Shown piece by piece: positions 26,982 to 61,276 of a stretch of DNA of 64,000 nt. The notes under the pieces were generated by a model that did not search any database, had not been told where the DNA came from, and worked only from the letters and a program-made list of their open reading frames with translations. Origin of the DNA: Algoriphagus lutimaris (GTDB taxonomy: Bacteria > Bacteroidota > Bacteroidia > Cytophagales > Cyclobacteriaceae); NCBI RefSeq assembly GCF_017051705.1, contig NZ_JAFIDJ010000002.1, positions 516,384 to 580,383 of the forward strand, in the 5' to 3' direction. Position numbers and translations under genes: made by a program. Positions within the stretch are counted from its first letter, which is position 1. Every line of letters begins with the position of its first letter.

Positions 26982-27746
26982 ATGATGAGAAAGAATGACG
27001 GGGTGGAGAAAGAGTCAACATCCAAAAAAACAAAAGAAAAGCGAGGCTTGGTCTCCTATCTCAAAGATTTTTTCATGCTTTTTCTGGCAGTATTTTGTGG
27101 GTTTCTGGCTGAAAATTACCGGGAATCTCTCAGTGCTCAAAAGATTGAAAAGGAATACATGGTTTCACTGATTGAAGACTTGAAAACAGATACCTCGAAT
27201 CTTAAAACCTATATAGCATTTAGGAAAGAAAGGAGTAAAAGCATGGATTCTTTAGCGGTAATGATTCTTTCTGAAGAAAGAAATCAATTTGGAAATCAGA
27301 TATACTATTTAGCAAGGCAAGTCTTTAACGAAGAACCATTTATATACTCTGATGGCACCATTCAACAGCTAAAAAATGCAGGAAATCTTCGCCTGATCAA
27401 AAAAAGGAACATTGTCGATGAATTACTCAATTATGAAAAGAAAGTAAGGATTGTGGAAGAATGGGACCAAAATGAAAACAAAACAAAATCTACATTCAGG
27501 GAGATGGGAGGAAAAGTATTTAATTCCAATGATCTTAATGCAACCATGGATGCAAATATGAAATTTGTCCTCCCTACAACGAACCCTCAGTTGATTACCG
27601 ATGATTTCAACACCATCAATGAGTTGGCATTTCAAATCCATTTTTTATCTAAAATGTCCTTGGGAAATAGTAATCGAGCAGAATCCTTGCGAAAAAGTGC
27701 CATAGAACTATTAAGGTTAGTACATGAAGAATATAACTTAAATTGA
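26982..27746 (+). CDS. DUF6090-like membrane protein, N-type D (first)
   Basis: A 254-residue single-pass protein. A Lys/Arg-rich N-terminus of about 30 residues precedes the helix KDFFMLFLAVFCGFLAENYR. The acidic residue at the helix start, Asn 16 residues later, an aromatic at 17 and Glu at 19 match the register of the other N-types, which ties this divergent gene to the array. The C-domain has the core motif as DGTIQQLKNAGNLRLIKKRN and is helical. Translation may start at either of two adjacent ATGs. It overlaps the frame of the next gene at its stop. Confidence 0.7.
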   Translation: MMRKNDGVEKESTSKKTKEKRGLVSYLKDFFMLFLAVFCGFLAENYRESLSAQKIEKEYMVSLIEDLKTDTSNLKTYIAFRKERSKSMDSLAVMILSEERNQFGNQIYYLARQVFNEEPFIYSDGTIQQLKNAGNLRLIKKRNIVDELLNYEKKVRIVEEWDQNENKTKSTFREMGGKVFNSNDLNATMDANMKFVLPTTNPQLITDDFNTINELAFQIHFLSKMSLGNSNRAESLRKSAIELLRLVHEEYNLN

Positions 27747-27748
27747 CT

Positions 27749-28501
27749 ATGGCAAAGTCCTTAAAAAACCAAGGGCCGACAGGTAAAAAAAGCCCGCTAA
27801 TTCAATCCATAAATCTGGATAAAAGAAACTGGGAATCCTATATCAAAGAATTTTTGATGTTGTTCCTAGCAATCGTCCTCGGTTTTTTTGTAGAGAATCT
27901 TCGAGAATCCTATGTGGAGCAACAAAGTGCCAAAGTACTTACCCAATCGATGCTGGAGGATTTAAAACAAGACAGAATTGCATTACAGGAAGCAATAAGG
28001 TTTGCAGAAGAAAAAGACCTGGTGATCCAAAATTTCCTCCAAATGCTTCACGCTCCAAAAGAATCTTGGGATACAGTAGCCATTTATAAAAGCATGACGA
28101 CGGTTTTCACCACTTTCCCTTTCTCCCCTACAGATGGCACCTATTCGCAAATGAAATCATCGGGAACACTTCGATATTTTAATCAAATGCTAGTCAATCA
28201 AATGAATGCCTATGATAATCAGTTGAAGAAAACTGTTTTTAGAGATGAAATTGTTGAAAAGGCTGAATGGGAATTAGTCCCGCTAGCAGGTACTCTGATC
28301 AATTTTGAAGTAACTGGAGAATTACGATTTGACAAGCCGGTAACCAAAGAAATGTACCTCAAAATTCCCGATAAAAACATTTTGGATATTCTTATCAATA
28401 ATGTCGCTGTTGTTCGGACAATGATGGGAAGATCTCTTCAGGAGTATAAGTCTCAACTTACTTTGGCAGAGGACCTTATTACTGAGCTAGAATCTCGGTA
28501 A
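27749..28501 (+). CDS. DUF6090-like membrane protein, N-type D (second)
   Basis: A 250-residue paralogue of the preceding gene, with helix KEFLMLFLAIVLGFFVENLR after a basic N-terminus of about 35 residues. The core motif reads TDGTYSQMKSSGTLRYF. The ATG at 27749 is chosen; a TTG at 27743 overlaps the previous stop by four bases and could allow coupling. The C-terminal half (ELVPLAGTLINFEVTGELRF) is less like the type A proteins. The two D genes differ strongly from each other outside the membrane helix. Confidence 0.7.
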   Translation: MAKSLKNQGPTGKKSPLIQSINLDKRNWESYIKEFLMLFLAIVLGFFVENLRESYVEQQSAKVLTQSMLEDLKQDRIALQEAIRFAEEKDLVIQNFLQMLHAPKESWDTVAIYKSMTTVFTTFPFSPTDGTYSQMKSSGTLRYFNQMLVNQMNAYDNQLKKTVFRDEIVEKAEWELVPLAGTLINFEVTGELRFDKPVTKEMYLKIPDKNILDILINNVAVVRTMMGRSLQEYKSQLTLAEDLITELESR

Positions 28502-28592
28502 TCTCTGGAAAAATATCGATATTATATTCCTTACTTAATAAACCTTCTGAAAAATTCAGTTGGAATGTATGTAAACAAATAATTAGGAAATC

Positions 28593-28784
28593 ATGGGAAT
28601 GTTTTGGGATTTAATTCAGCAGAGTGAAATAGAGGAACAAAAGGAGAAGGCAGTTTCTATCGAACAACGTGTACTTTATTTAGAGGAAGAGCTTGAAAAG
28701 ACTAGAAAACTTTTAATAAAAACATTGCATCTACTGGAAAAACATATTGGAAAAGATATTGATGAAGATGGAAAGTTAGGGTAA
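28593..28784 (+). CDS. Small coiled-coil protein, 63 residues
   Basis: A short, highly charged frame with heptad spacing through residues 10-55 (IEEQKEKAVSIEQRVLYLEE, then LEKTRKLLIKTLHLLEKH). No signal or membrane segment. I do not recognise a family. It lies between two DUF6090-type genes on the same strand; the helical character and codon use look genuine. It could be a cytosolic partner of the membrane proteins, which is speculation. Confidence 0.5.
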   Translation: MGMFWDLIQQSEIEEQKEKAVSIEQRVLYLEEELEKTRKLLIKTLHLLEKHIGKDIDEDGKLG

Positions 28785-28813
28785 ACAGCAGTTTTTTTGG
28801 TTAAAAACAAGTT

Positions 28814-29545
28814 ATTATATCACTCTTTCGAAGAATCCGACAAAAACTCATTCAGGAAAACAAGTTCACCCGCTATTTGGCTTATGCTTTTGGAGAAATT
28901 TTTCTAGTTGTGATTGGAATTTTGATTGCGCTTCAAGTAAACAACTTTAATAACGGAAGACTTGCAAAAATAGAGGAAGAGCGGATAATTGAAGATTTAT
29001 CTACTGAAATCTTACTTGCAATGAAAAGCAGGGAAGAAATAAGATTAGAATATTCTACCACAATCACACTTATTGCTCAAGCTTTAGATAAAATCTATTC
29101 CAATCTCCCAGCTTCTTTATCTGATGAGGAATGTAGAAGCATAGTATTTTCTCATATTATCCGTTGGGATCCTCATACCATTTCGACGCTTGAAGAAATA
29201 GTAGCAACAGGAAAAATCTCACTTTTAACAGATATTGAGCTAAGAAATATGCTGGTGGAGTTCAGAAACTTGTCCATAAGAAACAGAGAACGTTTAAATC
29301 AAACCATTTTTGAAGCAAATGTCTTGGTGGATGATTATCCAATAGAACTAAAAAGAACTTGGAGTCTTGAAATTCAAGATTCGGAATTTGCTTGTGACAT
29401 AAACAAGATTAGAACCAATGATGCATTGCTTGCAAAGTTGCAAAGCAACAGAGGAAGAATGACTTCTCCGAGAAGCTCAGCAAGAAGAGAATTAGAAATG
29501 CTACAAGCTATTCAAAAGCTGATTAACAATAGAAACATAAAATAA
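28814..29545 (+). CDS. DUF6090 protein, N-type A, with ATT in place of the start codon
   Basis: The family-typical N-terminus (ISLFRRIRQKLIQENKFTRY) is encoded from 28814, but the position of the ATG is ATT, followed by ATA TCA CTC TTT. The nearest conventional start in frame is TTG 28877, which would remove the basic N-terminus and begin inside the membrane helix (LAYAFGEIFLVV). Full length would be 243 residues. The C-domain has STLEEIVATGKISLLTDIEL as core motif. Either a rare ATT start is used, or the gene is losing expression. A TAA lies just upstream at 28802. Confidence 0.6.
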   Translation: MISLFRRIRQKLIQENKFTRYLAYAFGEIFLVVIGILIALQVNNFNNGRLAKIEEERIIEDLSTEILLAMKSREEIRLEYSTTITLIAQALDKIYSNLPASLSDEECRSIVFSHIIRWDPHTISTLEEIVATGKISLLTDIELRNMLVEFRNLSIRNRERLNQTIFEANVLVDDYPIELKRTWSLEIQDSEFACDINKIRTNDALLAKLQSNRGRMTSPRSSARRELEMLQAIQKLINNRNIK

Positions 29546-29685
29546 TGCTTCACTACCTTCATCAAAAACTCATTCTTTAAGTAAACTCCTAACAGTATTT
29601 GCTATACGCCGTTGAAGAAATTCTTTTGGTTGCCATTGGGTTTTTGATTGCCTTTTCACTTAGGAATTTAGCCAGCAATCCTTAG
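29545..29685 (+). pseudogene. Decayed DUF6090 N-cassette
   Basis: ATG CTT CAC TAC CTT at 29545 resembles the family start, is stopped after 11 codons, and in another frame 29593-29685 reads QYLLYAVEEILLVAIG then FLIAFSLRNL before TAG. This is the membrane cassette ([19 protein letters not shown]) with GE changed to EE and no C-domain. The start overlaps the previous stop (TAATG), as in intact pairs. The 279 bases after it, to 29964, are AT-rich and hold nothing I recognise. Confidence 0.8.
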
Positions 29686-29964
29686 GAATCTAAAGAAAAA
29701 TTGGAACTCCTTATTTCAATAAACCCCTATGATCTTTGGGGTTTCATTTAAAACTTGATTGGTTCAATCGAAAGTTTATCAAAATATTTGAACAGGAAAT
29801 TACGGGAATCAACCTGTATACAAAATCAGGATAAATATTTATAATTTTTTTGCTTAATTCTATAATTAATCCTATAAATCATCAAATCACAATATTAATT
29901 TTTTAGATTTTCAATTTCATAGTCTTTAATTTTCGATATTGCTTCCTGCTAATTTATACAAAAC

Positions 29965-30621: not shown

Positions 30622-30728
30622 TGACAAAACTCAAAACCCAGCGATTACAATTCAATCATTTCACTTTTTTTCAGATCATAGAATTAATGTATCTTATTGA
30701 TTCTTTTTCAGTTTTATTTGAATTTCCA

Positions 30729-31460
30729 ATGCTCACTATATTCCGGAAAATCCGCCAAAAACTCCTAACTCAAAACAAGGTCACTCGCTATTTAGCCTAT
30801 GCCATAGGTGAAATTTTTTTGGTTGTCATTGGAATTTTGATCGCCCTACAAGTAAATAACTGGAATGAAAGTAGAAAAGAGGATGCAAGAGAGCGGGAAC
30901 TATTAATATATGCATTGGAAAATATTAAAACAGATTCCTTAAGCTTGGACAGCATCACATCAAGAACAGATAAAATACTTGCAGTACAAAGGGATTTGAT
31001 TCTTCTTTCAGAAAATAAAATTCCTGCACAATCCATTGGAAACCTTGATTTGATTCGAGCTTCAGAGCCTAATATTTTGATTATCAAAAAAAACAATCCC
31101 AACCTTCCAAATGAAGTAAAAGACCAAGAGATAAAGAAAATGCTCTTGGATCATTACTTGACAATAGAATGGTTGGAAAACACCATTCTCAAACATAATG
31201 ATATTATTGAGGGTGTAGTGAGGCCCTTTATGGCAGAAAAACAACTACTGAATTATGGAGAGCAATTAAACACCGACCGCGCGAAATTTGATTTGGTAAA
31301 CGATGAAAGGTTTTATGAAGAGTTCAAAAATGAAGAACTCAGGCAGATTTTATTCGAATCGGGAGTGAAATTGAGAATAATGAGAACCAATGTTGAAAGA
31401 GTCGCCGAAAAAAATGAAAATTTAAAGAAAGCTATCAACTCATATCTAAACCATCGATGA
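30729..31460 (+). CDS. DUF6090 protein A1, N-type A, C-class NP
   Basis: First gene of a 13-copy run. 243 residues from ATG 30729 ([13 protein letters not shown]), preferred over an upstream ATG 14 codons earlier because it fits the family start. The membrane helix is about residues 21-42. The C-domain differs from most: NPNLPNEVKDQEIKKMLLDHY, then VVRPFMAEKQLLNYG. The only close match is the gene at 57598 in the second array, which has [20 protein letters not shown] and [14 protein letters not shown]. The stop overlaps the next start by four bases (ATGA). Confidence 0.8.
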   Translation: MLTIFRKIRQKLLTQNKVTRYLAYAIGEIFLVVIGILIALQVNNWNESRKEDARERELLIYALENIKTDSLSLDSITSRTDKILAVQRDLILLSENKIPAQSIGNLDLIRASEPNILIIKKNNPNLPNEVKDQEIKKMLLDHYLTIEWLENTILKHNDIIEGVVRPFMAEKQLLNYGEQLNTDRAKFDLVNDERFYEEFKNEELRQILFESGVKLRIMRTNVERVAEKNENLKKAINSYLNHR

Positions 31461-32212
31461 TCTCTTTTTTTAGAAAAATCCGCCAAAAACTCCTTTCCCA
31501 AAATCGGGTAACCAGATACCTCGTTTATGCGATAGGAGAAATCCTATTGGTGGTTATAGGTATTCTAATTGCACTTCAAGTCAACAACTGGAATGAACAG
31601 CGCAAAGCAGCAAACAGATGGAATACCTATCAAAAACGATTCCTTGAAGACTTTGAGGTAATTCTGGAGGACACAGATAATTCTATCCGTGGAAATGAAA
31701 AAAACTTGAGGAATTCAATCTTGGTGAAAAACTCACTGGAGTCTAAAAACCTACATGATTCTAGTAGAATAAACTTTGAAACCTACCTAGGTCAATATCA
31801 CCAGTATTACATGACTATGACACCCTTTTCTACTTACGAAGAGATGATCAGCGCAGGAGAACTCAATCTGATTCCAAGTAGCAAGATTAGAGATGCCTTT
31901 TCTAGTCTTTCAGGGTATCGAAATTTCATAATCGAAGTAAACAAAGCTTACCATGATGCTGAAATCATGAAAACCAGTGAGTTTCAGCGGTATGTTCGAT
32001 ATACCCTTCTAAATCCAGGAACGGATTCCAGCAAAGTCATCCCTTCTTATGATTTTAATTCCATGGCTGGAGATTCTGTCCTGATCAATAAGGTTTCCCG
32101 GCAATCAGTTGCCTGGAATAGTATTTTGGGGATGTTTAAGAGGTATAAAACGTATGTTTCCGCATTTCGAGATTCGATCCAATTAAACCTGGAAAAAATT
32201 GAAAACCCTTAA
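31457..32212 (+). CDS. DUF6090 protein A2, N-type A, C-class DF
   Basis: 251 residues. N-cassette [20 protein letters not shown] then [13 protein letters not shown]. The C-domain begins KRFLEDFEVILEDTDNSI, has core motif TYEEMISAGELNLIPSSKIR and ends with YDFNSMAGDSVLINKVSRQS. These three blocks align with the gene at 37662 (RLLEDFELIETRTQ, TYDEMKSNGKLDLI, YDFEKMANDPEYQNKLSRVG), so the two share a C-class. Translationally coupled to A1. Confidence 0.8.
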   Translation: MISFFRKIRQKLLSQNRVTRYLVYAIGEILLVVIGILIALQVNNWNEQRKAANRWNTYQKRFLEDFEVILEDTDNSIRGNEKNLRNSILVKNSLESKNLHDSSRINFETYLGQYHQYYMTMTPFSTYEEMISAGELNLIPSSKIRDAFSSLSGYRNFIIEVNKAYHDAEIMKTSEFQRYVRYTLLNPGTDSSKVIPSYDFNSMAGDSVLINKVSRQSVAWNSILGMFKRYKTYVSAFRDSIQLNLEKIENP

Positions 32213-32221: not shown

Positions 32222-32989
32222 ATGATTTCATTTTTCAGAAAAATCCGCCAGAAACTCCTTTCCCAAAATAAGGTAACCCGATATTTAGTCTATGCGATTG
32301 GAGAAATATTCTTGGTGGTGATGGGAATATTAATTGCACTTCAGGTGAATAACTGGAATGAGAGTCAAAAAAATAAAGCCACTGAACAAAAGTTATTGAG
32401 GGAACTTAAAGACGACTTATCGGCAACTTTAGAAGACCTGAAATCTGATATAGTTATTGCCTCAGAACATTTAGCAATTTCCGATTCTATCTATACCTCC
32501 CTCTATTTAAAAGAAGAACCACCAACTGACATCAGTATTGATTTCTGGTTTTTATTTAAAAGAGGGTCACTTTTCGCAAAGATTTCGTCCTACGAATCCA
32601 TAAAAAATACAGGCATTGATTTAATTCAAGATGATGCACTGAGAATTCAAATCACTAATTTTTATGAAATGAGCTTGATGAGAATTGTTAATCTGGAAAG
32701 CATTATTGCTAAAAACAGAGATGAAATTCAAAATATTTTAATCTCCCAAAAATTCAAGCAAAGCACATCTTGTGACACTTGTAAAAATTTAACGGAGCTT
32801 TTATCGCAAGAAAATCTTGATAAAAATATACTTACATCCATCAATGCTAAGACTTTAGCTACAGACACAGAATTCAATCAAAGTCTAAAGCTTCATTTTA
32901 TAAGATACAATACGCTTAATAGATATTACTTGGATGCCGAGCGGGATATTGAGCAAATGATTCAAAGCTTAAATGACTATTTAAAATAG
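32222..32989 (+). CDS. DUF6090 protein A3, N-type A, C-class YD
   Basis: 255 residues, nine bases after A2. Core motif SYESIKNTGIDLIQDDALRI followed by TNFYEMSLMRIV. Unlike most copies it carries a CDTCKN pair of cysteines near residue 184, which could form a disulfide if the domain is periplasmic. The closest relative in the window by core motif is the gene at 38399 (GFEVLKSKGIDLLSDKKLQ). Confidence 0.8.
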   Translation: MISFFRKIRQKLLSQNKVTRYLVYAIGEIFLVVMGILIALQVNNWNESQKNKATEQKLLRELKDDLSATLEDLKSDIVIASEHLAISDSIYTSLYLKEEPPTDISIDFWFLFKRGSLFAKISSYESIKNTGIDLIQDDALRIQITNFYEMSLMRIVNLESIIAKNRDEIQNILISQKFKQSTSCDTCKNLTELLSQENLDKNILTSINAKTLATDTEFNQSLKLHFIRYNTLNRYYLDAERDIEQMIQSLNDYLK

Positions 32990-32993: not shown

Positions 32994-33782
32994 ATGATCT
33001 CATTTTTTAGGAAAATCCGCCAAAAACTTCTCCAGCAAAACAGCTTCACCCGATACCTGATTTATGCTTTGGGTGAGATAATGCTTGTCGTAATCGGGAT
33101 TTTGATTGCTTTACAGGTAAACAATTGGAATGAGGGAAGAAAACAGCGAAATATAGAGCTGAAGTATTTTTTAAACCTTAAAAATGATCTCTATGCCGAT
33201 CTGGACAGGTTAAACTATTTGATTGATATTTCTAAAGGAAAAGTAACCGCTGCCAGTAAAGTTAAAAAAAGAGCAGATCGTGATTCGGTAGGATCGCTTT
33301 ACGATTTTTCCACAGATATGCTGAATCTGATATATGTTGAAGAATTTCGACCTAATGACAATACCTATGAGGAAATGAAGAGTTCGGGAAACTTCAGTTT
33401 GATTCAAAATGACGAACTCAAATTGGAATTAATGACTTTGAGAAAAACCTATATAGAAATTCAAGCATTTCAAGAGCATCTGAGGTACGATTTTAATGTA
33501 TTCCTTCAGGATTATGAGCGGTATGTCAATTGGGGTAAATATTATGACCTACCTAATTCTAATGTTCCAAAATCAGAGTTGTTATTTGATTCAACATATA
33601 TCGAGAACCATCAAAAAGAAATGGAATCGGAGGTTCGCAAACTCTTAAAAAGTAAAATTTTCCTTAACAATATCTTCCTCCTAGAAATTAATTACAGATA
33701 CGATATGGATGTGCTTCAAAATACTAAATCACAAATTGAAGAAATCATCCAAACATTAAATAATGAACTAGTTTTAGAATAA
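32994..33782 (+). CDS. DUF6090 protein A4, N-type A
   Basis: 262 residues, four bases after A3. Core motif TYEEMKSSGNFSLIQNDELK starts at about residue 124, near the family consensus. The C-domain starts LKNDLYADLDRLNYLIDIS and contains a long aromatic-rich helix (YDFNVFLQDYERYVNWGKYY). It does not fall clearly into the W or YD class. Ends with a predicted coiled helix and the acidic tail ELVLE. Confidence 0.8.
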   Translation: MISFFRKIRQKLLQQNSFTRYLIYALGEIMLVVIGILIALQVNNWNEGRKQRNIELKYFLNLKNDLYADLDRLNYLIDISKGKVTAASKVKKRADRDSVGSLYDFSTDMLNLIYVEEFRPNDNTYEEMKSSGNFSLIQNDELKLELMTLRKTYIEIQAFQEHLRYDFNVFLQDYERYVNWGKYYDLPNSNVPKSELLFDSTYIENHQKEMESEVRKLLKSKIFLNNIFLLEINYRYDMDVLQNTKSQIEEIIQTLNNELVLE

Positions 33783-33786: not shown

Positions 33787-34536
33787 ATGATCTCATTTTT
33801 TCGAAAAATCCGACAAAAACTACTCAGTCAGAATAGAATAACCCAGTACATCTTCTATGCTTTAGGAGAGATTTTTTTGGTAGTGCTTGGAATTCTGATA
33901 GCGCTTCAAGTCAATAACTGGAACCAAGAAAGGATTAGTCTAAAACGTGAAAAGCAAATACTTCAAGGTTTATATCAGGAATTTGAAGCAGCAGCTAAAG
34001 AATTAGATACAGACCTGAATGCCCGAAAGACATATCTCCGAGCAGCGAAGGCTCTTCAGGACAACCATTAGACCGGAGATGCATTAAACCTTCCAATAGA
34101 TTCTATCAAACCCTTTGTTTACTCCCTACTATCAACAAGGTTTTATTCAACTGCCCATCCGATTTTAGATGACTTGTCCTCTTCCGGAAGTCTCGAACTT
34201 ATCCGATCAGATTCTATTAGGTTGCTTTTGGGGACCTATATTCAGGAGAAAAATAGGTACATCTCAGTGGAGGAACGAGAAGGCAAATTTACCTACGAAC
34301 AATTCATCCCTTTTCTTTCGGATATTTTGAATTTAAGCCATATCAGTTCTGACCTAATGACATCTTCAGAATTAGATAAAAATATTGAGATTTTGGAAGA
34401 GAATAATCAATATGGAAGTCTGATCTATATGAGAATTTCTCGTGTAAACGTTGCATTAGATTACGGATATAAAGTCGAACAGAGTATTGAAAATGTTCTT
34501 TTGCAACTTGAAAAGGAATTAAATAACTGGCCATGA
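33787..34536 (+). pseudogene. DUF6090 protein A5, interrupted by one amber codon
   Basis: A full-length frame of 249 sense codons is broken only by TAG at codon 95 (34069-34071, after ALQDNH). Downstream in the same frame, TGDALNLPIDSIKPFVYSLL and the core motif DDLSSSGSLELIRSDSIRLL continue intact to 34536. The C-domain is of the W class, starting YQEFEAAAKELDTDL, with Tyr in place of Trp. The loss looks recent. The next gene still starts at the ATGA overlap, so coupling to its translation could now fail. Confidence 0.85.
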
Positions 34537-36846: not shown

Positions 36847-37586
36847 TCTCACTTTTTCGAAAAATCCGCCAAAAACTCCTAACTCAAAATAGAGTGACCA
36901 GATACCTTGCATATGCTGTAGGAGAAATCCTTCTCGTGGTGATTGGAATTCTCATTGCATTGCAGGTAAATAACTGGAATGAAGAAAGAAAGAATAATAA
37001 AATACGTGAGATCTTTCGAAGTTCCCTAAAGAAAGATCTCCAAGCAGACACTTCCTATCTAAAAGCCACTATTCAAAAACTTCAATTGGAAAGTGAGCAA
37101 TTAGCGCAGTTTAAAAGCCTTATCAATGAAATAGGGACTGATAAAAATGCTTTGATAGGCTTAATAAATACTAAAATAGAGCCTTTTATTACCCCATTTA
37201 GTGGGTTCAATAATAACACTTATCGTTCATTTGCCAACTCCGGAAGGCTTGAGCTTATAAGTTTAGACCTCCAAGAAGATCTATTTAAACTAAATTCATT
37301 TCAAGTTATTGTTGAGCGCGATTCAGAAAAATATCTTGATCTTTATTTCAGTAATATCGAGGCTTTTAAACTACCAATTCCGGTCGATATTCAATTATTA
37401 CAAAATGGACCAGTCACCGATGCAATATGGAAGGCAACTAATTTTGAAACAATTGGAGTCCGACTGAACTCTTGGGGTACTTCCAAAAAGAACTATTATA
37501 GAATCATATTGCCATATTTGATTCAAGCACAAGAAAGGACAACTCAGATTCTTAAGAAATACTTTTCTGAAGAAAGTCAAAACTAA
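36843..37586 (+). CDS. DUF6090 protein A9, N-type A
   Basis: 247 residues, overlapping A8 by four bases. Core motif TYRSFANSGRLELISLDLQE; C-domain starts LKKDLQADTSYLKATI. Its 5' segment (bases for [17 protein letters not shown]) is nearly identical at the DNA level to that of the next gene, including synonymous positions, while the C-domains are unrelated in detail. A 75-base gap follows, the longest inside this run, so a new ribosome entry or internal promoter is possible there. Confidence 0.8.
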   Translation: MISLFRKIRQKLLTQNRVTRYLAYAVGEILLVVIGILIALQVNNWNEERKNNKIREIFRSSLKKDLQADTSYLKATIQKLQLESEQLAQFKSLINEIGTDKNALIGLINTKIEPFITPFSGFNNNTYRSFANSGRLELISLDLQEDLFKLNSFQVIVERDSEKYLDLYFSNIEAFKLPIPVDIQLLQNGPVTDAIWKATNFETIGVRLNSWGTSKKNYYRIILPYLIQAQERTTQILKKYFSEESQN

Positions 37587-51819: not shown

Positions 51820-54800
51820 CTAGTTCTTGATCTCTAAAACTCTTCCTGGTGTCCATGGGGCTTGATTTGCGTCAAGCTCCGCATTGATGGCCGGTACATC
51901 AACCTCTATCAGTTGCTTCAGACTTGCAATGACTGGATTCAAATAGTTCTCTGCAATTCTTTTTACCTCTTTAGACGTAGTAGTGGGGTCGGTTAAACTG
52001 GTAGATCCGGAATAAATTGCTGTATTCACCCGACTACTTAGCGATGGCGCCTGATCGATTTCTAGTTCTCTTTTGATTGGATCCCCAAACATGGTCAGCT
52101 CAATCTCATCCAATACATTTTCCATGGCATCAATTTTTTCATCCAGAGAGGCACTTTTCACTACTCTTGCAGCTGCCTGGTAATATTTCAATGCTTCACG
52201 CAATTGATTATAAGAATTTCTCGCACCATTTGCTGATTTGGAAAGCTCCATTAGTTCCTGATGAAAAGCGAGCATAGCTGCGGGATCTGACATCGGGACG
52301 GTTTGGTTATCCAAGGTTTTTACTTCGAAGGATACCGCTTCTGTGAGTGGAGTTATTTCACCATTAATACTCTTTGCTAGCTCCACAGTATAGGTTCCAG
52401 GCAGCACCATAATTCCTGAAGGGAGGTCCTTCATGGGATCTGCGAGACTAGGATTCACTTGATCGATAGCAGGATACGTTAAATCCCAGTATACTCGATT
52501 AATTCCTTCAGTCGCACCGCTCCTAATCTCATTGACCACCTCACCATTTACATCTTTAATGGTGAAAATCAGGAAGGGTTTTTCTTCGTCTTGCTCAGCT
52601 TTTAGCTGCTCGTAGCTAGGATAGTAAACAGTCTCACCGGCTTTCCTTTTCTCTTCTTCAGTTTTCTTTCGCTCACTTTCAAGCGTAGGGTATTTCTCCT
52701 TCAGAAAATAAGTAAAAGCAGCTCCAAATGGGGGGTTTTCACCTAAATAGTAGGTCTCACCCTGAAATCCTTTTGGCCCTAACCAAGAGATGGTTTTACT
52801 TGCAGCAATGGGACTATATGGCTCGTACTGCAATGCTTCCGAAACGGGGAAAATATGTGCTTCTTTTTCTAAAAGCTCATTGGATAATTCGCGCAATGCG
52901 GAGTAATCATCCAGGATATAAAACCCCCTACCAAATGTACCCAATACCAGGTCCTTTTCTCTTTCCTGAATGTTAATGTCTCGTACAGCGATGGTGGGTA
53001 GTCCTTTTGATAGCTTTTGCCAATATTGTCCACCATCGAGCGAAGTATAACACCCAAACTCAGTACCAACAAATAATAAGTTTGCAGCTACAGGGTCTTC
53101 TGCAATAGCATAAACGGATCCTTTTTCGGGCAGATTAGCTTTAATGGTTGTCCAGCTTTTTCCCATATCCGTGCTTTTCAAGATATAGGGTTTAAAATCA
53201 CCTTGTTTGTGATTATTAAATGCCGCATAAACGGTATTCTTATCATGAGCAGAAGCGATGATTTCATTCACATAGGTCATGTCAGGCACGCCTGGAAATG
53301 AACTGTAGCGTGTCCAGCTCTCTCCTCCGTCTGTGGACACATGAATCAACCCGTCGTCTGTACCAGCGTAAAGTAAATTCTGATCAATTGGAGATTCTGC
53401 GATGGCCACAATGTTACCATAAGGTGTAGTCGATGCATGCTTTGCCACTGCATCCATAGGCCATACCTTGCCCATTACTTCTAGCTTGTTTCGATCTATT
53501 CCTCTAGTCAGATCACCACTCACTTCACGCCAGCTCTCGCCCATATCATCACTTCGATGTACTCGATCAGAAGCATAGTACAAACGTTTGTGGTCGTGAC
53601 TACTGACAAGTAAAGGTGCATCCCAATTCCAGGTATAGGAATAGTCTCCATCCAAAGGCTGTGGTACAATGTTCTTTGTCTGACCGGTTTTCCTGTCAAA
53701 TCTGGCCAGGTTACCATACTGCGATTGACTGTAAATAATATCTGGGTTTTCAGGATCCACATGTGGTTCAAAACCATCACCCAAGGTCGTCACGAACCAA
53801 TTGCGATTGCTGATTCCAGTAGTTTCAGTCGTTTGAGAAGGTCCACCGAATGTGAAATTGTCCTGTGTTCCTCCATAAACAAAATAGAAGGGATAGTCAT
53901 TGCTTACTCCTAGCTTATAAAACTGTGTCACTGGAAGATTTGGGAAGAAACGCCAAGTTTTTCCTCGATCCCATGACTCGTAAACTCCCCCATCATTTCC
54001 ATTCAGTAAATAATTTGGGTTCTTAGGATCAATCCACAGCGCATGATTATCGATGTGCTTGTTCTTCTCACCAACATTTTTGAATGCCTTACCTCCATCT
54101 TCAGAAACGGCTGCATAGGTATCCATCACATAGACAAGCTCTACATCTACCGGATCTGCTATCACCTCTTGGTAATAGAGTCCACTGGTTGTAAAGTCAC
54201 TTTGACGCACCCAGGATTCCCCAAGGTCTGTGGATTTATAAAACCCACCTTTATCTTCCTGTGCTTCCACTATGGCATAGATCACGTCTGGATTAGCAGG
54301 AGAAATATCCAGTCCAATTCGTCCTAAATCACCACTCGGAAGTCCATTGACAATCTTACGAAAATTCTCTCCTCCGTCTGTTGACTTGTAAACAGAGGAT
54401 TCGGGTCCACCACTGATGTAGGTAAACACATGGCGTCTCCTTTGGTGCGCCACTGCATAAATCACATTGGGGTTTCTAGGGTCGAGATGCACCTCATGAA
54501 TGCCTGTATGCTCATTGATATCCAAAATCTTTGTCCAAGTATCTCCTCCATCTATCGTTTTATATAATCCGCGATCACCTCCAGCACTCCAAAGCGGACC
54601 AGCAGCCGCTACATATACCACATCTGAATTGTTCGGATCAATGGCAATCATCCCAATGTGCTCTGAGTTTTTGAGCCCCTTATGCTCCCAGCTTTTTCCT
54701 CCATCCTTACTTTTATAAATCCCATCCCCATAGGCTACACTTCGCTGGTTATTGTTTTCTCCTGTTCCAACCCAGATGACGTTATGGTTATTGGGATCCA

Positions 54801-55113
54801 TCTCCACCACCCCGATGGAGTAAGAGCCCTCAGCTTCAAATACCGGATCAAAATTGAGCCCTTTGTTGGTGGTTTTCCAAACCCCTCCTGCGGCAACGCC
54901 CACATAAAATTCACTTGGATTGTCTGGGTTTACAGCAAAATCAGCGATCCTGCCCGAAGTGAAAGCAGGTCCTATAGATCTGAAGGAAAGACTATTCCAA
55001 TTGGTTTTATAAATGGCAGGTTTATCATCTTCCTTTTTTTGAGCTACTGCGAAAAAAGCAGAACCGGTAAGTAGTAGAAGCAACAGCGAAAAAGCGATGG
55101 TTTTTTGTAGCAT
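51820..55113 (-). CDS. VPS10/BNR-repeat propeller protein, exported
   Basis: A 1097-residue protein with a signal peptide (LLLLLLTGSAFFAVA before QKK). Sialidase-like BNR Asp-boxes recur through residues 60-700 (KTTNKGLNF, KSKDGGKSWEHKG, KTIDGGDTWTKIL, KSTDGGENFRKI, STDGGESWTRYS, KSTDMGKSWTTI), which predict a large beta-propeller as in VPS10/sortilin and the 'WD40/YVTN/BNR-like' glycosidase-annotated proteins. The C-terminal part has FTIKDVNGEVVNEIRSG and RVYWDLTYP beta-sandwich motifs and a helical end. The common label glycosyl hydrolase is not supported by any visible active site. A paralogue starts at the right edge of the window. Confidence 0.85.
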   Translation of the reverse strand: MLQKTIAFSLLLLLLTGSAFFAVAQKKEDDKPAIYKTNWNSLSFRSIGPAFTSGRIADFAVNPDNPSEFYVGVAAGGVWKTTNKGLNFDPVFEAEGSYSIGVVEMDPNNHNVIWVGTGENNNQRSVAYGDGIYKSKDGGKSWEHKGLKNSEHIGMIAIDPNNSDVVYVAAAGPLWSAGGDRGLYKTIDGGDTWTKILDINEHTGIHEVHLDPRNPNVIYAVAHQRRRHVFTYISGGPESSVYKSTDGGENFRKIVNGLPSGDLGRIGLDISPANPDVIYAIVEAQEDKGGFYKSTDLGESWVRQSDFTTSGLYYQEVIADPVDVELVYVMDTYAAVSEDGGKAFKNVGEKNKHIDNHALWIDPKNPNYLLNGNDGGVYESWDRGKTWRFFPNLPVTQFYKLGVSNDYPFYFVYGGTQDNFTFGGPSQTTETTGISNRNWFVTTLGDGFEPHVDPENPDIIYSQSQYGNLARFDRKTGQTKNIVPQPLDGDYSYTWNWDAPLLVSSHDHKRLYYASDRVHRSDDMGESWREVSGDLTRGIDRNKLEVMGKVWPMDAVAKHASTTPYGNIVAIAESPIDQNLLYAGTDDGLIHVSTDGGESWTRYSSFPGVPDMTYVNEIIASAHDKNTVYAAFNNHKQGDFKPYILKSTDMGKSWTTIKANLPEKGSVYAIAEDPVAANLLFVGTEFGCYTSLDGGQYWQKLSKGLPTIAVRDINIQEREKDLVLGTFGRGFYILDDYSALRELSNELLEKEAHIFPVSEALQYEPYSPIAASKTISWLGPKGFQGETYYLGENPPFGAAFTYFLKEKYPTLESERKKTEEEKRKAGETVYYPSYEQLKAEQDEEKPFLIFTIKDVNGEVVNEIRSGATEGINRVYWDLTYPAIDQVNPSLADPMKDLPSGIMVLPGTYTVELAKSINGEITPLTEAVSFEVKTLDNQTVPMSDPAAMLAFHQELMELSKSANGARNSYNQLREALKYYQAAARVVKSASLDEKIDAMENVLDEIELTMFGDPIKRELEIDQAPSLSSRVNTAIYSGSTSLTDPTTTSKEVKRIAENYLNPVIASLKQLIEVDVPAINAELDANQAPWTPGRVLEIKN

Positions 55114-55367: not shown

Positions 55368-56108
55368 ATGATCTCATTTTTTAGAAAAATCCGCCAGAAA
55401 CTTCTTCAGCAAAATCGTCTGACCCGATACATGTTGTACGCTGTGGGCGAAATTGTGCTGGTCGTAATTGGTATATTGATCGCATTGAGTATCAATAACT
55501 GGAACGATCAGAAAAAAGCACGAGATTTTGAAGTTAAAATGCTTGGTGAACTTCAAAGCACTCTTAGAGCTGACCTTAATTATATTGAAAACCACTTATT
55601 GGGAAATCGAAATCAAGCAGAATTAGACGCGATTGACTATTTCAGCGACCTACTTAAAAAAGTGAATAGAGACACTGACTCCTTGAGATACCATTGGTCA
55701 AGGTTAGCATATGGGCAAAATTTTCGAATGAACTTAGGCCCCTATGAGAGCCTTAAATCTATTGGTGTAGAAAAGATTAGCAATGATTCCCTGAGGTACC
55801 AGATCGTTCGCTTTTATGACTTTATTTTTCCAAGAAATAGAGATTTGATTCAAACGGCTCAAGATAGAGTTGAACTTGATGATGACCGCCTAGCCCAACT
55901 AATGGACAACATGACCTATGAGCTGGTAGATGACGAGGTAATCATTGATCGGCCAATCCCAGATCCATCCATTATATATAACCCTATATTTCTAGAAGTA
56001 CTCAGAAATGCGCAGAGGAGAACCTCATGGACAATCCAGCACACCAATGCGGTAATTGAGGAACTAAATTTTTTACTGGGAAAAATATATGACGAATTAA
56101 ATAAGTAG
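55368..56108 (+). CDS. DUF6090 protein A15, N-type A start with C-type helix end, C-class YD
   Basis: 246 residues; first gene of the second array, 254 bases from the divergent VPS10-like gene. It starts as type A ([20 protein letters not shown]), but its helix ends LIALSINNWND, as in the two type C genes that follow, not [11 protein letters not shown]. The core motif GPYESLKSIGVEKISNDSLR and the following RFYDFIFPRNRDLI also match type C genes. It reads as a type C gene whose first 20 codons are of type A. The stop is directly followed by the next ATG. Confidence 0.82.
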   Translation: MISFFRKIRQKLLQQNRLTRYMLYAVGEIVLVVIGILIALSINNWNDQKKARDFEVKMLGELQSTLRADLNYIENHLLGNRNQAELDAIDYFSDLLKKVNRDTDSLRYHWSRLAYGQNFRMNLGPYESLKSIGVEKISNDSLRYQIVRFYDFIFPRNRDLIQTAQDRVELDDDRLAQLMDNMTYELVDDEVIIDRPIPDPSIIYNPIFLEVLRNAQRRTSWTIQHTNAVIEELNFLLGKIYDELNK

Positions 56109-56840
56109 ATGCTCAACTTCCTCCGTAATCTCAGACGAAAAAATATGAATACCAAGTACTTTAAATATGCTTTGGGTGAGATAATACTAGTTGTTATCGG
56201 AATCCTGATTGCTTTAAGCATCAACAATTGGAGCGAAAATAGAAAGGAAAGAAAGTTTGAGAAGAAAATGCTTGCAGAAATACAATTGGCGCTTGAGAAC
56301 GATATCGACTATTTTAATCGTTGTATCGCACGATTAGAAAGACTGGATTCATCAGTTGAGGTCATGCTAACGCTCATAGAGCAAAAGGCAACTTTTGTAG
56401 ACTCCATGTATGATCAACCAAACCAGAGGTCATATAATTTGGCTACAGGCATCTTATATCGATATAATCCCGGACCCTACGAAGCATTGAAAGCTACCGG
56501 TGTTGATAAGATCAGAAATGAGGTTTTGCGAAAAGAACTCATCAACTTGTATGATTTTGAATATCCCCGCCATGAAGAAATAGTGAAGTATTACGATCAA
56601 GATTACAAGGATCAAACAGATCGATTCTTTGCATTCCAATCTCCCCCATTTATTGAAAACAGAAATGGAGAAAGATTTATACTAACAAAATTTCCATCAG
56701 ACCTTTTACAAAAACCTGAATTCCTTCTCTTACTAGATGATATTAGAGCTCGAGCTCGACTTGAGTTAAATATGTTTAACAATTTTATCCCCGAGCAGAA
56801 CAGTGTATTGAAGCTTTTAAAAAAAGAATTAGAAGAATAA
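56109..56840 (+). CDS. DUF6090 protein C1, N-type C, C-class YD
   Basis: 243 residues. N-terminus MLNFLRNLRRKNMNTKYFKY then [20 protein letters not shown]. Core motif PYEALKATGVDKIRNEVLRK followed by NLYDFEYPRHEEIV. Second Met (codon 13, MNTKYFKY) is an alternative start. The membrane-helix DNA is identical to that of the next gene over 83 bases. Confidence 0.82.
   Translation: MLNFLRNLRRKNMNTKYFKYALGEIILVVIGILIALSINNWSENRKERKFEKKMLAEIQLALENDIDYFNRCIARLERLDSSVEVMLTLIEQKATFVDSMYDQPNQRSYNLATGILYRYNPGPYEALKATGVDKIRNEVLRKELINLYDFEYPRHEEIVKYYDQDYKDQTDRFFAFQSPPFIENRNGERFILTKFPSDLLQKPEFLLLLDDIRARARLELNMFNNFIPEQNSVLKLLKKELEE
56142..56224 (+). repeat. 83-base exact repeat, copy 1 (membrane cassette)
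   Basis: Identical base for base to 56876-56958. It covers codons for NMNTKYFKYALGEIILVV and the rest of the membrane helix to ALSI. Identity stops abruptly on both sides. Confidence 0.9.
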
Positions 56841-56842: not shown

Positions 56843-57589
56843 ATGCTCAACTTCCTTCGCAAATTCAGACGAGATAATATGAATACCAAGTACTTTAAAT
56901 ATGCTTTGGGTGAGATAATACTAGTTGTTATCGGAATCCTGATTGCTTTAAGCATCAATACTTGGAATGAGGACAGAAAAGATCGGATTTATGAACAAAA
57001 AATGCTGAATGAGATATACCGATCTCTGATCAATGATGCATCATATATTCGAAATCACACGATTGGCTATAGAATAGCAACTGTAGATTCAAGCATCAAA
57101 TACTTTGATCAAATGCTTTTGGGTCTTGACCCAAATCCTAATAATCTGAAATATTATTTTGAAAGATTAACATGGGGGCTGACTTTTCAAATAAACGAAG
57201 GGCCATATGAAGGACTCAAAGCCAATGGATTGGATAAAATCAGGAATGATTCACTACGAAATACCCTAATGAGGTATTTTGACTTCGCTATTCCAAGGTA
57301 CGAGGAACTAATAGAATGGAAATTAACCTCCACCCAACAAGAAATGGTGAAAATTTCTGAGGAATACAAAGGCAATTATCTTGCAAAGGAAGAAAACGGT
57401 GAAATTGTCCTTTATAGAAATATATCTTCCCCTTATTTCATAAGAGACCATGAATTTCTAAAGCTTTTAGCCCTTTCTAAATCCACTAATAAATGGAATA
57501 AGGATCGGTTTGATGAACTCCTTAAAGAACAATCATTTTTGATAAAAATGTTAGAAAAAGAACTTTCCATTGACCCTGCAAAACATTAA
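56843..57589 (+). CDS. DUF6090 protein C2, N-type C, C-class YD
   Basis: 248 residues, two bases after C1. N-terminus MLNFLRKFRRDNMNTKYFKY; helix end ALSINTWNEDRKD. Core motif PYEGLKANGLDKIRNDSLRN and RYFDFAIPRYEELI. Outside the shared cassette, the C-domain shares the YD layout with C1 but few long identities, in contrast to the perfect DNA match in the cassette. Confidence 0.82.
   Translation: MLNFLRKFRRDNMNTKYFKYALGEIILVVIGILIALSINTWNEDRKDRIYEQKMLNEIYRSLINDASYIRNHTIGYRIATVDSSIKYFDQMLLGLDPNPNNLKYYFERLTWGLTFQINEGPYEGLKANGLDKIRNDSLRNTLMRYFDFAIPRYEELIEWKLTSTQQEMVKISEEYKGNYLAKEENGEIVLYRNISSPYFIRDHEFLKLLALSKSTNKWNKDRFDELLKEQSFLIKMLEKELSIDPAKH
56876..56958 (+). repeat. 83-base exact repeat, copy 2 (membrane cassette)
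   Basis: Partner of 56142-56224, in the same orientation and 734 bases downstream. Confidence 0.9.
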
Positions 57590-57597: not shown

Positions 57598-58323
57598 ATG
57601 ATCGCATTTTTTAGAAAAATCCGCCAAAAACTCCTAAAGACCAACTCCGTTACTCGGTATCTAGCCTATGCTATAGGAGAAATACTTCTAGTTGTAATCG
57701 GTATTTTAATTGCACTCCAGGTAAATAACTGGAATGAAAACAGGAAAGAAGAAGTCGCCCAAAATGAATTATTGACAAATTTTGTGGTTGACCTAATGGC
57801 GGATACAGTACTGCTCATGGATTATGAATCGGATTTATTTGCTGTAATTCAAACCCACAAGCAACTCTATCTGGCACGAAAAGGAATACTTTCGTTTTCT
57901 GAAATTGAAAATCCACAATTAATCAGAGGTTCGATTAGATACCATTCTATTACCCTTAGCAATCATCCAAATATCGGCACCCAAGTAATGGATGATGAAA
58001 TTAGAAATGAAATTCTCGACTACTATCAATTCCTAGCAAGAGTTGACAACTCTTATTTACAATATGACAATGTTGTCAAAGAAACCGTTAGGCCCTATTT
58101 AGCAAAAAACCTAGCATTAAATCCTGATTTTCTTTTTGATAATGAGAAAGAAAATAAATCCCCTTTAGATCTAGATCAATTCTCTCAAGTAATCTTTCAG
58201 GATGATTTTGGACAGGTGCTTTTTGAAGCAAATCTTAAAGCTGAAGAAACCATGGAGTTTTTTGAAGAACTAGAAAGTAGAAATTATGCCCTTCGTATTT
58301 TGATCAAAAAGAAAGTTTCATGA
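57598..58323 (+). CDS. DUF6090 protein A16, N-type A, C-class NP
   Basis: 241 residues. Cassette [20 protein letters not shown] and helix end [16 protein letters not shown]-domain with [20 protein letters not shown] and [18 protein letters not shown]; the counterpart is the first gene of the long array (30729). Thus this C-class is represented once in each array. It overlaps the next gene by four bases, joining a type A to a type B gene. Confidence 0.82.
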
Positions 58324-59018
58324 AGAGAATCCTCCATATCCTGAAAGAAAAATGGCCGGAATATATTCTGGAGATTCTAGTGATTACCATCGGTATCTTG
58401 GGTGCCTTTGCACTAAATAATTGGAATGAAAATCGAAAAGAGACCTACTCAAGGAAGGAAATGCTCAATTCATACCGAAATGAGCTAACCGACAACATTG
58501 CTTTTTTAGAGGACCGAATTACTACCAAAAATGAACCGATAATGAACCGATTGGATGCTTTCATACAATCGAATGTCGGATTGGAAAAGGATGAAGCAGG
58601 AAGATGCATATTGGATGTCTTATCTTTTCCCCCTTCGGTACCTGAGATATCTGTCCTGAATGAATTACTAACCTCAAATCTGTTTAAAAATCAGCTGGAG
58701 ATCCTTGACCCATCTAGAAAACTAAAGCTAACGGTTAATCAAATCGAAAACTCTGAAAATTTTCTAAATCAATACTGGGTAAATGAAATCAGTCCATTTG
58801 TAAATCAAAACAACCTAAATGTAATCATCTTCTCAGTTTCACGGGATCTTCCTTATAGTTTGACAGATGAGCAACTAGAAACAGTAAACTCTCCGCAGTT
58901 CAAAAATCTGGCAGTAAATAAATACTTCCTATTGTCCGACTGGATCAGGCTTCAAAAATTAGCCTTAGACCAAATGAAAAATATTTTAGAATTGGTAGAA
59001 GAAGAACTCGCGAAATGA
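58320..59018 (+). CDS. DUF6090-like protein B3, N-type B, C-class SPF
   Basis: 232 residues. Cassette [20 protein letters not shown], helix end [16 protein letters not shown]-domain lacks the core motif and has [14 protein letters not shown] and [15 protein letters not shown], as in the type A gene at 39130. C-domain begins [16 protein letters not shown]. Coupled by ATGA overlaps on both sides. Confidence 0.82.
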
Positions 59019-59713
59019 AAAGAATCCTCTCTATACTCAAAGAAAAATGGCCAGAATATATCTTGGAGATTCTGGTGATTACGATTGGTATTTTAGGCGC
59101 CTTTGCGCTGAATAACTGGAATGAAAATCGATTGAGTGAGCGAGAAGAAAGAATACTGTTATCCAACATTCGAGAGGATCTCATCAATACCATCAAAAAA
59201 TTTGAAAAGGACACTGTATTCAATGCCCAAACCATCCGTAATGCAGAAAGGATTGAATATTATATTCATGAAAATCAACCTTATTCAATCGAACTCGATA
59301 GTTGTTTTGCATCATTAGGCGGCTGGAAAAGCCCATATGCAATATCTTCAGCCTATCAATCCCTAAAGTCGCAGGGTATAGATCTCATAGAGAATAAAGC
59401 ACTTCGAAATTCCATTGTAAATCTTTACGACGGAATCTTAATTTTTGTAGAAGATGATTATGACCATGTGGAATGGTCTTATTATGAATCGGTCTTTATG
59501 CCCTACTCTTCCAAAAATATTAGAAGAGTGAATGAAGCATCTTTTCCAAGTGCTAGACCAAACGATTTTGAAGCCATCAAACAAAGTCAAGAATTTCAAA
59601 ACATCCTGAGCACAATTATCAGGTATCGAAAAGCAGGAATAGAAATTTATGGGGATGCAATTGAAGAGATAAATCAGGTGATTGCTATGATAGATCAGGA
59701 GTTAAACGAATAA
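59015..59713 (+). CDS. DUF6090-like protein B4, N-type B, C-class YD
   Basis: 232 residues, overlapping B3 by four bases. Core motif [20 protein letters not shown] followed by [17 protein letters not shown]-domain begins [16 protein letters not shown]. The first 110 bases are close to those of B3 and B5, with most differences synonymous. A block [20 protein letters not shown] resembles VPNDFESLKRDQEY in B1, so B1 and B4 share a C-subclass. Confidence 0.82.
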
Positions 59714-59720
59714 TCAACCA

Positions 59721-60464
59721 ATGAAAAGAATCCTTTCCATCCTCAAAGAAAAATGGCCAGAATATATCCTAGAGATTCTGGTCATTACGATCGGTATTTT
59801 GGGGGCATTTGCGCTGAATAATTGGAATGAAAATGTCAACAATAAGAGAATTGTAAATGATTATTACTGTCGCTTTTTGGCGGATTTAAATCAAGATGAA
59901 GTACAGGTTTCCGGTTTGCTCAAGGATAGTGGACTCAGATTAAAAAGTAGTAACGAAATGCTTGCTGAACTCCTAAGTACTAATCCAAACAAAGAAAAAA
60001 TTATCCAACTCATGCTGGAATCCACCGCAAAAATCACCTATCAGTTCAACCCCATTTCTGCAGGATATGATGATATCAAGTCCAGTGGAAATCTAAATAA
60101 TTTTACTGACCAAGCAATATTGGATAAACTTGGAGCCTATTTTCAAGAGGTAAAGGGACTTGCAGCCAATATTGCCAATAATGGGCAGCTAGGTTTGAAT
60201 GAGGTGTTTGAAATTGATGACTTTTATAAGATTGGATTTATTGATAATTCATTCTTGGAAGAGGCCATAGATACCACAGTGGTACGAAAAGAATTTTTGG
60301 ATAAAAATCCCTTAACCTTATCCCAAAACCAGGAATTAAAACATATCGCTTCCTTATTAATGGCGGTGAATTATCGAAATATCAAACATTATGAATCCAT
60401 AATTTCTAAAATCGTAGCTATTAAACCTGTTTTGGAAAGTCATTGCAACAACACATCAAATTAA
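59721..60464 (+). CDS. DUF6090-like protein B5, N-type B
   Basis: 247 residues, seven bases after B4. Helix end [15 protein letters not shown]. Core motif GYDDIKSSGNLNNFTDQAIL. C-domain begins CRFLADLNQDEVQVSGLL, distantly like the DF class (RFLEDFE). The C-terminus ESHCNNTSN has a lone Cys. A 65-base gap follows. Confidence 0.8.
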   Translation: MKRILSILKEKWPEYILEILVITIGILGAFALNNWNENVNNKRIVNDYYCRFLADLNQDEVQVSGLLKDSGLRLKSSNEMLAELLSTNPNKEKIIQLMLESTAKITYQFNPISAGYDDIKSSGNLNNFTDQAILDKLGAYFQEVKGLAANIANNGQLGLNEVFEIDDFYKIGFIDNSFLEEAIDTTVVRKEFLDKNPLTLSQNQELKHIASLLMAVNYRNIKHYESIISKIVAIKPVLESHCNNTSN

Positions 60465-60529
60465 GCCAACAATTAATATCGAAAAATTCACAAAATCTAC
60501 CTATTCTTTAAATCAATGATTCTTACAAA

Positions 60530-61276
60530 ATGAAACGAATCTTCAGCGCCCTCAAAGATAAATGGCCAGAATACATCTTAGAAATCCTGGTGATTACAAT
60601 TGGTATTCTTGGAGCCTTTGCGCTGAACAATTGGAATGAAAACCGATTAGAGGAGAAGGAAGAAGATGAAATACTTAAAAGCGTCAAAAAAGATCTAGAG
60701 AACACTATCAGCGAATTCGAGTTTTTGAATGTAATTAGGGAGTCCATACTTTATGGAACAAGAGGTATTTTAAATTTTTCAAATGCCACAGAATTACCAA
60801 AAAATGAGTTGGATAGCTTGCTTGGACTCACATTTAGCGTTCCAACTTTCAATAATAAAATGGGAACCATTGAACTGCTATTTACTTCAGGTAAGGTCAA
60901 CCTGATAAAAAATGAAACAATAAAAGCCCGCCTAATCGCCTGGCCTGGATACATAGAAGATATGACAGAGGAAGAAATCTTTGCGGTTAATCTATTTCAC
61001 GGACTTTATTATCAAACTTTGACGAAGTATGTAGTCATCGATGATCTTGTCACAGAAGTTGAAGTAGTATCATTCTTTGGTGGTGAAGCTGCTCCAGAAT
61101 CCTTCCCGAGACCCCCTCTAGAAAGTGATTATTCTGGTTTATTGAAGGACAAAACCTTCCTTAATCATCTGAGAATGCGTGCCCTTAATATAGAACGAAC
61201 AAATGCTGAAACTCGAGATTTAATAGAACAAGCAAAAGAAATTATTCAAATGATTGATTTAGAACTAGAGAAATAA
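60530..61276 (+). CDS. DUF6090-like protein B6, N-type B, C-class W
   Basis: 248 residues and last gene of the second array. Cassette [20 protein letters not shown], with Asp for Glu at LKEK. C-domain begins VKKDLENTISEFEFLNVI; core TIELLFTSGKVNLIKNETIK followed by LIAWPGYIEDMTEEE, which matches LANWPTYVTELKEQEEE of the type A gene at 35288. Another W-class domain behind a type B cassette. Confidence 0.82.
   Translation: MKRIFSALKDKWPEYILEILVITIGILGAFALNNWNENRLEEKEEDEILKSVKKDLENTISEFEFLNVIRESILYGTRGILNFSNATELPKNELDSLLGLTFSVPTFNNKMGTIELLFTSGKVNLIKNETIKARLIAWPGYIEDMTEEEIFAVNLFHGLYYQTLTKYVVIDDLVTEVEVVSFFGGEAAPESFPRPPLESDYSGLLKDKTFLNHLRMRALNIERTNAETRDLIEQAKEIIQMIDLELEK

Follow-up and report, generated by a model that had tools for sequence, protein, structure and literature searches.

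A very probable repertoire of membrane-anchored DUF6090 proteins with exchanged heads in Algoriphagus lutimaris, and a tentative role in envelope defence

The closest described systems are arrays of immunity genes. In Zhang et al. 2012 (PMC3482391), homogeneous polyimmunity loci are tandem, same-strand and closely spaced sets of distantly related paralogs; they are lineage-restricted, their content is very different between relatives, no toxin is recognised between the genes, nearly all of the immunity proteins are called cytoplasmic, and in several cases a recombinase adjoins the locus. The esaG and tipC immunity arrays of type VII secretion (T7SS), as presented by Garrett et al. 2022 (PMC9484751), change in copy number and form mosaics via crossovers in conserved blocks; the same paper describes TipC as membrane-bound and outward-facing, and suggests for TsaI a shared receptor to which its conserved N-terminal helices might attach. 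For Bacteroidales, PMC12247911 reports recombinase-associated arrays of orphan immunity genes, including SUKH-domain orphan immunity with non-synonymous mutations at the predicted interface. We analysed a window of 64,000 nucleotides (positions 516384-580383 of contig C8) from the 4.7-Mb genome of Algoriphagus lutimaris, in which genes of the family PF19578 (DUF6090) form two arrays on one strand within 26982-61276. Pfam describes the family as one of unknown function, and no paper of the Creative Commons-licensed PubMed Central mentions DUF6090 or PF19578.

The arrays resemble polyimmunity loci in their tandem, same-strand spacing and distant paralogy, in being lineage-restricted, in content that differs between close relatives, and in the absence of a recognised toxin between the genes. 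They differ in that the proteins are anchored and probably periplasm-facing, a single genome has several such loci, the array is broken up by other genes, and no recombinase was noticed among the recurrent neighbours. Nor is there a match to a known immunity family, so that membership in such a family, with a known or predicted toxin, was not found. With the esaG and tipC arrays they share copy-number change and mosaics created by crossovers in conserved blocks; in contrast to what is described there, they belong to another phylum, have one homology block (5') rather than two or three, carry far more divergent heads without a known toxin, and are transferred between species. They share phylum and array arrangement with the Bacteroidales genes, which differ from this single anchored family, with its purifying selection and no recombinase noticed. 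Because no immunity or toxin match was found, we do not file the family as immunity proteins. Sequence comparisons make it very probable that the genes constitute a repertoire of single-pass proteins whose heads are exchanged by gain, loss, transfer and anchor crossovers. In each protein a constant cytoplasmic and transmembrane anchor (about 47 residues) would carry a head (C-domain), of which there are many distinct kinds.

A profile made from 22 window copies identified 28 family frames between 26964 and 61273, all on the + strand, corresponding to 25 open copies and three frames of two copies with an in-frame TAG. This agrees with the original prediction, which had described about 25 open genes and two nonsense-interrupted copies in two arrays; of the three remnants that it added, two are clear (29548-29745 and 44737-44853; E<=1e-3) and the third was not found at that threshold. 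The family name given there is right: PF19578 matches 23 of the 25 window proteins at E<=0.01, with no split into unrelated families. When ten window proteins were scanned singly, six exceeded the Pfam cut-off, and the matches start with the transmembrane helix and cover a varying length of the head. Three anchor types occur in the window (A, B and C, the last at 26982 and 27743), and Pfam under-detects the divergent type C members. Genome-wide, PF19578 has 53 places, 48 of them above the curated cut-off of 23.5 bits, and our own profile gives 58 family frames in the window and twelve further genome stretches, a genome total of about 57 genes. Across the loci used, neighbouring members less than 500 nucleotides apart are co-directional in 292/292 cases, which is beyond chance. 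Gaps between neighbours are at most 30 nucleotides in 196/253 cases, and head-to-tail genes often overlap by 4 or 8 nucleotides. In 80 named loci, kept from at least 577 related places, 312/312 family frames are oriented as the query copy. Named loci and genus genomes may overlap; L120 equals G029 over the 5 kb compared and was excluded from the head comparison below and the analyses built on it. The array genes would probably be co-transcribed and translationally coupled.

The head comparison covered 474 members that have an anchor and whose head is 120 residues or longer. None of 3,846 within-genome head pairs was at least 50% identical (maximum 45.8%), and thus each genome examined holds at most one head of each kind. 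Between genomes, 219 pairs reached that level, touching 203 of the 474 genes, and 36 of the 54 heads of the source genome have a partner at least 55% identical in another genome. The original prediction explained the arrays by tandem amplification, with the exported parts diverging, and the lack of any such within-genome pair contradicts it. Amplification and diversification in place would explain the tandem layout and the shared anchor, and a few window neighbours share anchor codons; however, heads missing from the sister array described below reach 97% nucleotide identity in other species, and together with the within-genome counts this leaves the explanation highly improbable. In-place amplification thus does not appear to be the source of variation in recent time; an ancient duplication is possible.

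The most informative comparison is with the sister genome G018, in which GldB is 96% and GyrB 100% identical and the contig flanks are mostly 88-92% identical to the window. The syntenic locus contains 9 members and a 40-residue fragment vs 27 in the window, with 8 in common and one present only in G018; copy number therefore differs between related genomes, as had been anticipated. Among 28 G018 members sampled, which were collected only around PF19578 hits, partners at least 80% identical exist for 20 of the 54 source-genome heads. For the control family, Sortilin/BNR, both genomes give 15 matches. Between sisters 12/14 adjacent gene pairs retain their order, vs 14/46 between other genomes (both directions counted). 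For sister-species heads the pooled nonsynonymous divergence (dN) is 0.028 and the synonymous divergence (dS) 0.284 (dN/dS ~0.1), which shows purifying selection on the heads that are kept. The dS of matched heads ranges from 0.044 to 1.10, and therefore no single divergence time applies to them. Divergence of heads within a genome would alone fit many old families; turnover is the distinguishing feature.

The features of the two arrays are as follows.

26982-27746, +: head gene 1, divergent anchor type C (profile 7.6e-12), inside a block 92% identical to sister G018
27743-28501, +: head gene 2, type C, conserved at the array 5' end (PF19578 22.0 bits, just below cut-off)
28805-29545, +: type A copy without ATG, GTG or TTG before the anchor (profile 1.7e-36; sequence read)
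29548-29745, +: remnant resembling family members (tblastn 1.1e-5 and 9.5e-7)
30687-31460, +: type A copy; head 90% nucleotide identical in G025
31457-32212, +: type A copy; head 94% nucleotide identical in G034 (probable transfer)
32222-32989, +: type A copy (PF19578 42.8 bits)
32994-33782, +: type A copy (family profile)
33787-34536, +: type A copy interrupted by TAG at 34069-34071 (family profile, sequence)
34533-35291, +: type A copy (family profile)
35288-36076, +: type A copy; head 90% amino-acid identical in locus L054
36073-36846, +: type A copy (family profile)
36843-37586, +: type A copy common to sister G018
37617-38402, +: type A copy common to sister G018
38399-39133, +: type A copy, not in the G018 array; 21-nucleotide palindrome at 38443-38463
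39130-39858, +: type A copy, not in the G018 array; head 83% amino-acid identical in G029
39851-40588, +: type A copy; same head in G018 on another anchor
40757-42442, +: K+-channel-like membrane protein inside the array, non-family (Ion_trans_2 2.1e-5)
42556-43281, +: type B copy (family profile)
43278-43994, +: type B copy (family profile)
44002-44628, +: copy interrupted by TAG at 44521-44523 (PF19578 positions 1-181 of 182 on read-through)
44737-44853, +: anchor remnant (tblastn 2e-10)
55368-56108, +: second array, type A copy (PF19578 44.0 bits)
56109-56840, +: type A-like copy, anchor shortened (family profile)
56843-57589, +: type A-like copy, anchor shortened (family profile)
57598-58323, +: type A copy; sole whole gene of the second array kept in G018
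58320-59018, +: type B copy; head 89% nucleotide identical in G029 (probable transfer)
59015-59713, +: type B copy; head 97% nucleotide identical in G025 (probable transfer)
59721-60464, +: type B copy (family profile)
60530-61276, +: type B copy, last of the second array (family profile)

The first listed start of the copy at 28805-29545 is a TTG inside the anchor, and it is counted among the 25 open copies. The divergent type C pair at 26982-28501 marks the 5' end of the array.

Whole heads appear to be gained and lost, with lateral transfer between species. As a yardstick we used identity at 4-fold-degenerate sites of gldB and gyrB in seven genomes, which is ~35%, near saturation, between the source genome and non-sister genomes. 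Among 57 cross-genome head pairs (at least 55% identical, outside the sister pair), 11 exceed this yardstick at p<1e-3, 8 of them at p<1e-4; these p-values, like those for the anchor drop below, are uncorrected, and the 11 pairs are not fully independent, one G001 head being counted against both sisters. Because their synonymous sites are too similar compared with gldB and gyrB, we conclude that these 11 pairs are probably not vertical in descent. The heads of three window genes match other species at 62/68 (31457 vs G034), 49/54 (59015 vs G025) and 46/59 (58320 vs G029) of these sites, with 116/323, 107/319 and 112/325, respectively, for the housekeeping genes. DNA alignments agree with transfer where the case is clear: over 895 nucleotides the 31457 cassette has 90% identity to G034, whereas the array 5' end with the type C pair has 67.5% identity to the same genome over 1,858 nucleotides. 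Among the remaining pairs, many at 70-78% protein identity would be compatible with vertical inheritance and differential loss.

Heads are probably moved onto other anchors by homologous crossover within or close to the 5' end that encodes the anchor. All seven array-internal breakpoints relative to G018 (36842, 38436, 39863, 44036, 55405, 57598 and 58330) lie at most 37 nucleotides from a gene start. In 41 pairs with heads at least 85% identical in nucleotides, mean identity is 81-87% in codons 1-35 and 89-94% from codon 36, and in 13 of the 41 the drop over codons 1-36 relative to the head is significant. Identity profiles were printed for 13 pairs; the clear ones rise between about codons 32 and 48, and that of G034 vs G025 rises only near codon 64 (profile numbering), already in the head. 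Between orthologs the anchor has dN 0.066 and dS 0.54 (head 0.028 and 0.28), so that the part most alike between paralogs diverges faster than the head between orthologs. In 7 of 12 testable pairs, the anchor is closer to a resident anchor of its own genome than to that of the ortholog. For example, the anchor of the G018 partner of 39851 is 94% identical to a resident anchor vs 68% to that of its ortholog; this partner directly follows the partner of 37617, and the source genome has 38399 and 39130 between the two. In another family of the phylum (locus L178 of G099), one clean cassette (7378-8103) is the difference between two arrays with 95 and 98% identical blocks; the flanking blocks overlap by 48 nucleotides in the shorter array, just upstream of a gene start, and the 3' tails of the two arrays differ too.

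Two further observations concern the anchor-coding 5' end. It is fused in frame to a sulfatase at L044:3819-5594 and to an amidohydrolase-like lipoprotein, identified by eye, at L094:6543-7994; these fusions are possibly by-products of recombination at the anchor. A 21-nucleotide GC-rich palindrome of the CCTGCCT-N7-AGGCAGG type lies in frame in three family anchors (38443-38463, L034:290-310 and L036:3639-3659). All 3 places in the source genome (at most one mismatch) are in family anchors. In 1.86 Mb of fetched loci, counting only hits with at least 16 self-complementary positions, 8 of 10 exact hits are in anchors and 2, by eye, in anchor remnants. As a recombination site the palindrome was rejected: it is a dispersed repeat in other genomes, with 24 copies in G021, which has no DUF6090 hit. 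No recombinase was noticed among neighbour clusters of at least three genomes, the neighbours being only partly profile-scanned.

Hydropathy and charge are consistent with the predicted design, a single-pass protein with a basic N-terminus, a constant anchor and a variable C-domain that probably lies beyond the inner membrane. The best match to the PDB by sequence has E 0.18. The first 21 residues have a median net charge of +5, vs +0.5 after the helix, and a possible second helix was seen by hydropathy in 2/474 members; the topology is thus probably single-pass with the head, which looks helical by eye, on the periplasmic side. With an open pattern, the residue seven before the conserved small helix residue is E in 470/474 members and D in one; the other 3 gave no match. 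E28, G35, I36 and A39 are invariant across an alignment of 120 rows. Over positions 24-45, conservation recurs with the 100-degree period of a helix (p=0.0028 by permutation; p=0.0026 for the member set selected by a pattern asking for E or D). Such a face, with a conserved acid and small residues, suggests that the helix docks against another, either a second copy of itself or a partner. Synonymous helix codons of 17 window copies are mostly near random, with exceptions at codons 24, 26 and 36, and the conservation is therefore attributed to selection on the protein; gene conversion keeping the anchors alike is unsupported for the helix on the same grounds. Among the first 13 codons, several are conserved in nucleotide sequence locally, within the array; for I8, 17/17 window copies use ATC vs 9/22 other own and 94/228 foreign copies.

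The helix face bears directly on a sensor repertoire, in which heads bind different extracellular or periplasmic ligands and signal via the shared anchor to a common membrane partner, much as interchangeable receptor chains on one signalling core. The invariant intramembrane E28 and a face kept by selection on the protein, with synonymous sites mostly varying freely, speak for it, as does purifying selection on the heads. So do extra C-terminal modules: 17 frames of at least 310 residues carry additional sequence, and among ten long members scanned are one TPR (1.3e-7) and one DUF6197 (1.3e-8), with two DUF3471-like tails and one SusE/F-like tail below cut-off; one further member is a sulfatase fusion. 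However, the proteins lack a cytoplasmic signalling domain, and no kinase is linked to them consistently; response regulators adjoin some single copies, but the neighbours are mostly generic families (response regulators and kinases, serine hydrolases, S9 peptidases and others, named by eye in the recurrent clusters). Lateral exchange of heads is more typical of conflict genes, which also counts against a sensor. We rank it second and regard it as unlikely. A related reading, which we consider rather doubtful, sees a plug-in receptor repertoire, the anchor being an invariant transmembrane plug with an intramembrane glutamate that docks on a common membrane core; dozens of interchangeable periplasmic heads, one of each kind per genome, would be acquired from other species and attached to resident plugs through crossovers in the plug-coding DNA, which makes the anchor both docking part and recombination handle.

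Probable periplasmic topology, non-redundant heads and lateral exchange would suit a phage-exclusion repertoire, in which periplasm-facing heads block DNA entry of particular phages. The searches argue against it. PADLOC gave no convincing match among the 25 window proteins (three different families of known defence proteins, each in 1/25 members, best E 0.0047); 0/27 pattern matches on viral contigs were confirmed; the one member searched (34533-35288) had no match in plasmid records or in 50,697 phage records; and a SieB-like score in one of the ten long members was weak and below cut-off (E 0.026). We consider phage exclusion distinctly unlikely.

The reading that we place first is a preventive envelope defence repertoire, an analogy that we advance tentatively for the role itself. 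The conserved anchor face would hold each head at the membrane, possibly on one shared partner, and each head would bind and neutralise one class of incoming envelope-acting protein, for example a toxin. It is ranked ahead of the sensor because the organisation mostly matches polyimmunity loci, with the toxin link missing, and the recombination resembles that of the esaG and tipC arrays. The recognition repertoire of the original prediction thus stays the best reading, although no ligand, toxin or partner was identified.

Several results weigh against this combined picture. On the functional side, no toxin was recognised among neighbour clusters of at least three genomes (602 open reading frames clustered, single ones unscanned) or in a Pfam scan of 20 non-family window proteins. 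PADLOC, NCBIfam and PHROGs gave only scattered weak matches, and TssD of the type VI secretion system iii (T6SSiii) was unmatched in the source genome and found in 2/40 genus genomes. The selection seen on the heads is purifying, not positive, and the strong conservation of one helix face exceeds the needs of a simple tether. On the genomic side, 46/57 head pairs are within vertical expectation, the significant anchor drop is absent in 28/41 pairs, and 5/12 testable pairs have no closer resident anchor. The lack of close paralogs is not special to the array family: nine other Sortilin/BNR copies listed for the source genome are each at most 42% identical to the window copy. In addition, no immunity family is among the Pfam, NCBIfam and PADLOC matches of the 25 window proteins.

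At least one Pfam DUF6090 match is present in 26/58 genomes and type C relatives in 25/58, including several without a Pfam match; because these relatives are missed, the Pfam count is an undercount. In an even sample of the phylum 18/118 genomes match, some with 15 to 26 places, and in one of them a 59-kb stretch contains 41 family frames, with one gene truncated at the locus boundary. The counts of 26 and 18 genomes include the source genome. Orthologs of the gene at 27743 are 71-91% identical in six other genus genomes, about the GldB level where both were measured. In L055, L064, L072 and L171 (near 8 kb), response-regulator genes stand before and a protein of ~1,200 residues after the family gene; this setting may mark a core copy.

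Inside the first array, the product of 40757-42442 shows, by eye, the filter-like motif TLGFGE and has a long region at its N-terminus. We rejected the gene as a common partner of the array genes, since only 3/40 genus genomes, including the source genome, carry it. Its position, the conserved transmembrane face and the operon-like spacing, which suggests co-expression, would fit subunits of one large hetero-oligomeric membrane complex for stress or transport, with heads as structural variants. That explanation is very unlikely given the scarcity of the channel gene, Pfam counts of 0 to 32 in other genus genomes (type C being missed) and the share of heads, 20 of 54, with a partner at least 80% identical among the 28 sampled sister-species members. 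Between the arrays, the - strand encodes a hybrid two-component regulator at 47246-51349 and, at 51820-55113, the Sortilin/BNR propeller protein; the regulator is missing from the corresponding G018 stretch.

Taken as a whole, an exchanged repertoire serving envelope defence is our best explanation, held with somewhat less than even confidence. Because the arrays turn over between species with near-identical housekeeping proteins, strong and shifting selection by the environment probably acts on this uncharacterised family, to which about 57 genes of a single genome belong. Should the defence reading be correct, the range of recombining immunity-type arrays would widen, in Bacteroidota, to the periplasmic face of the inner membrane.

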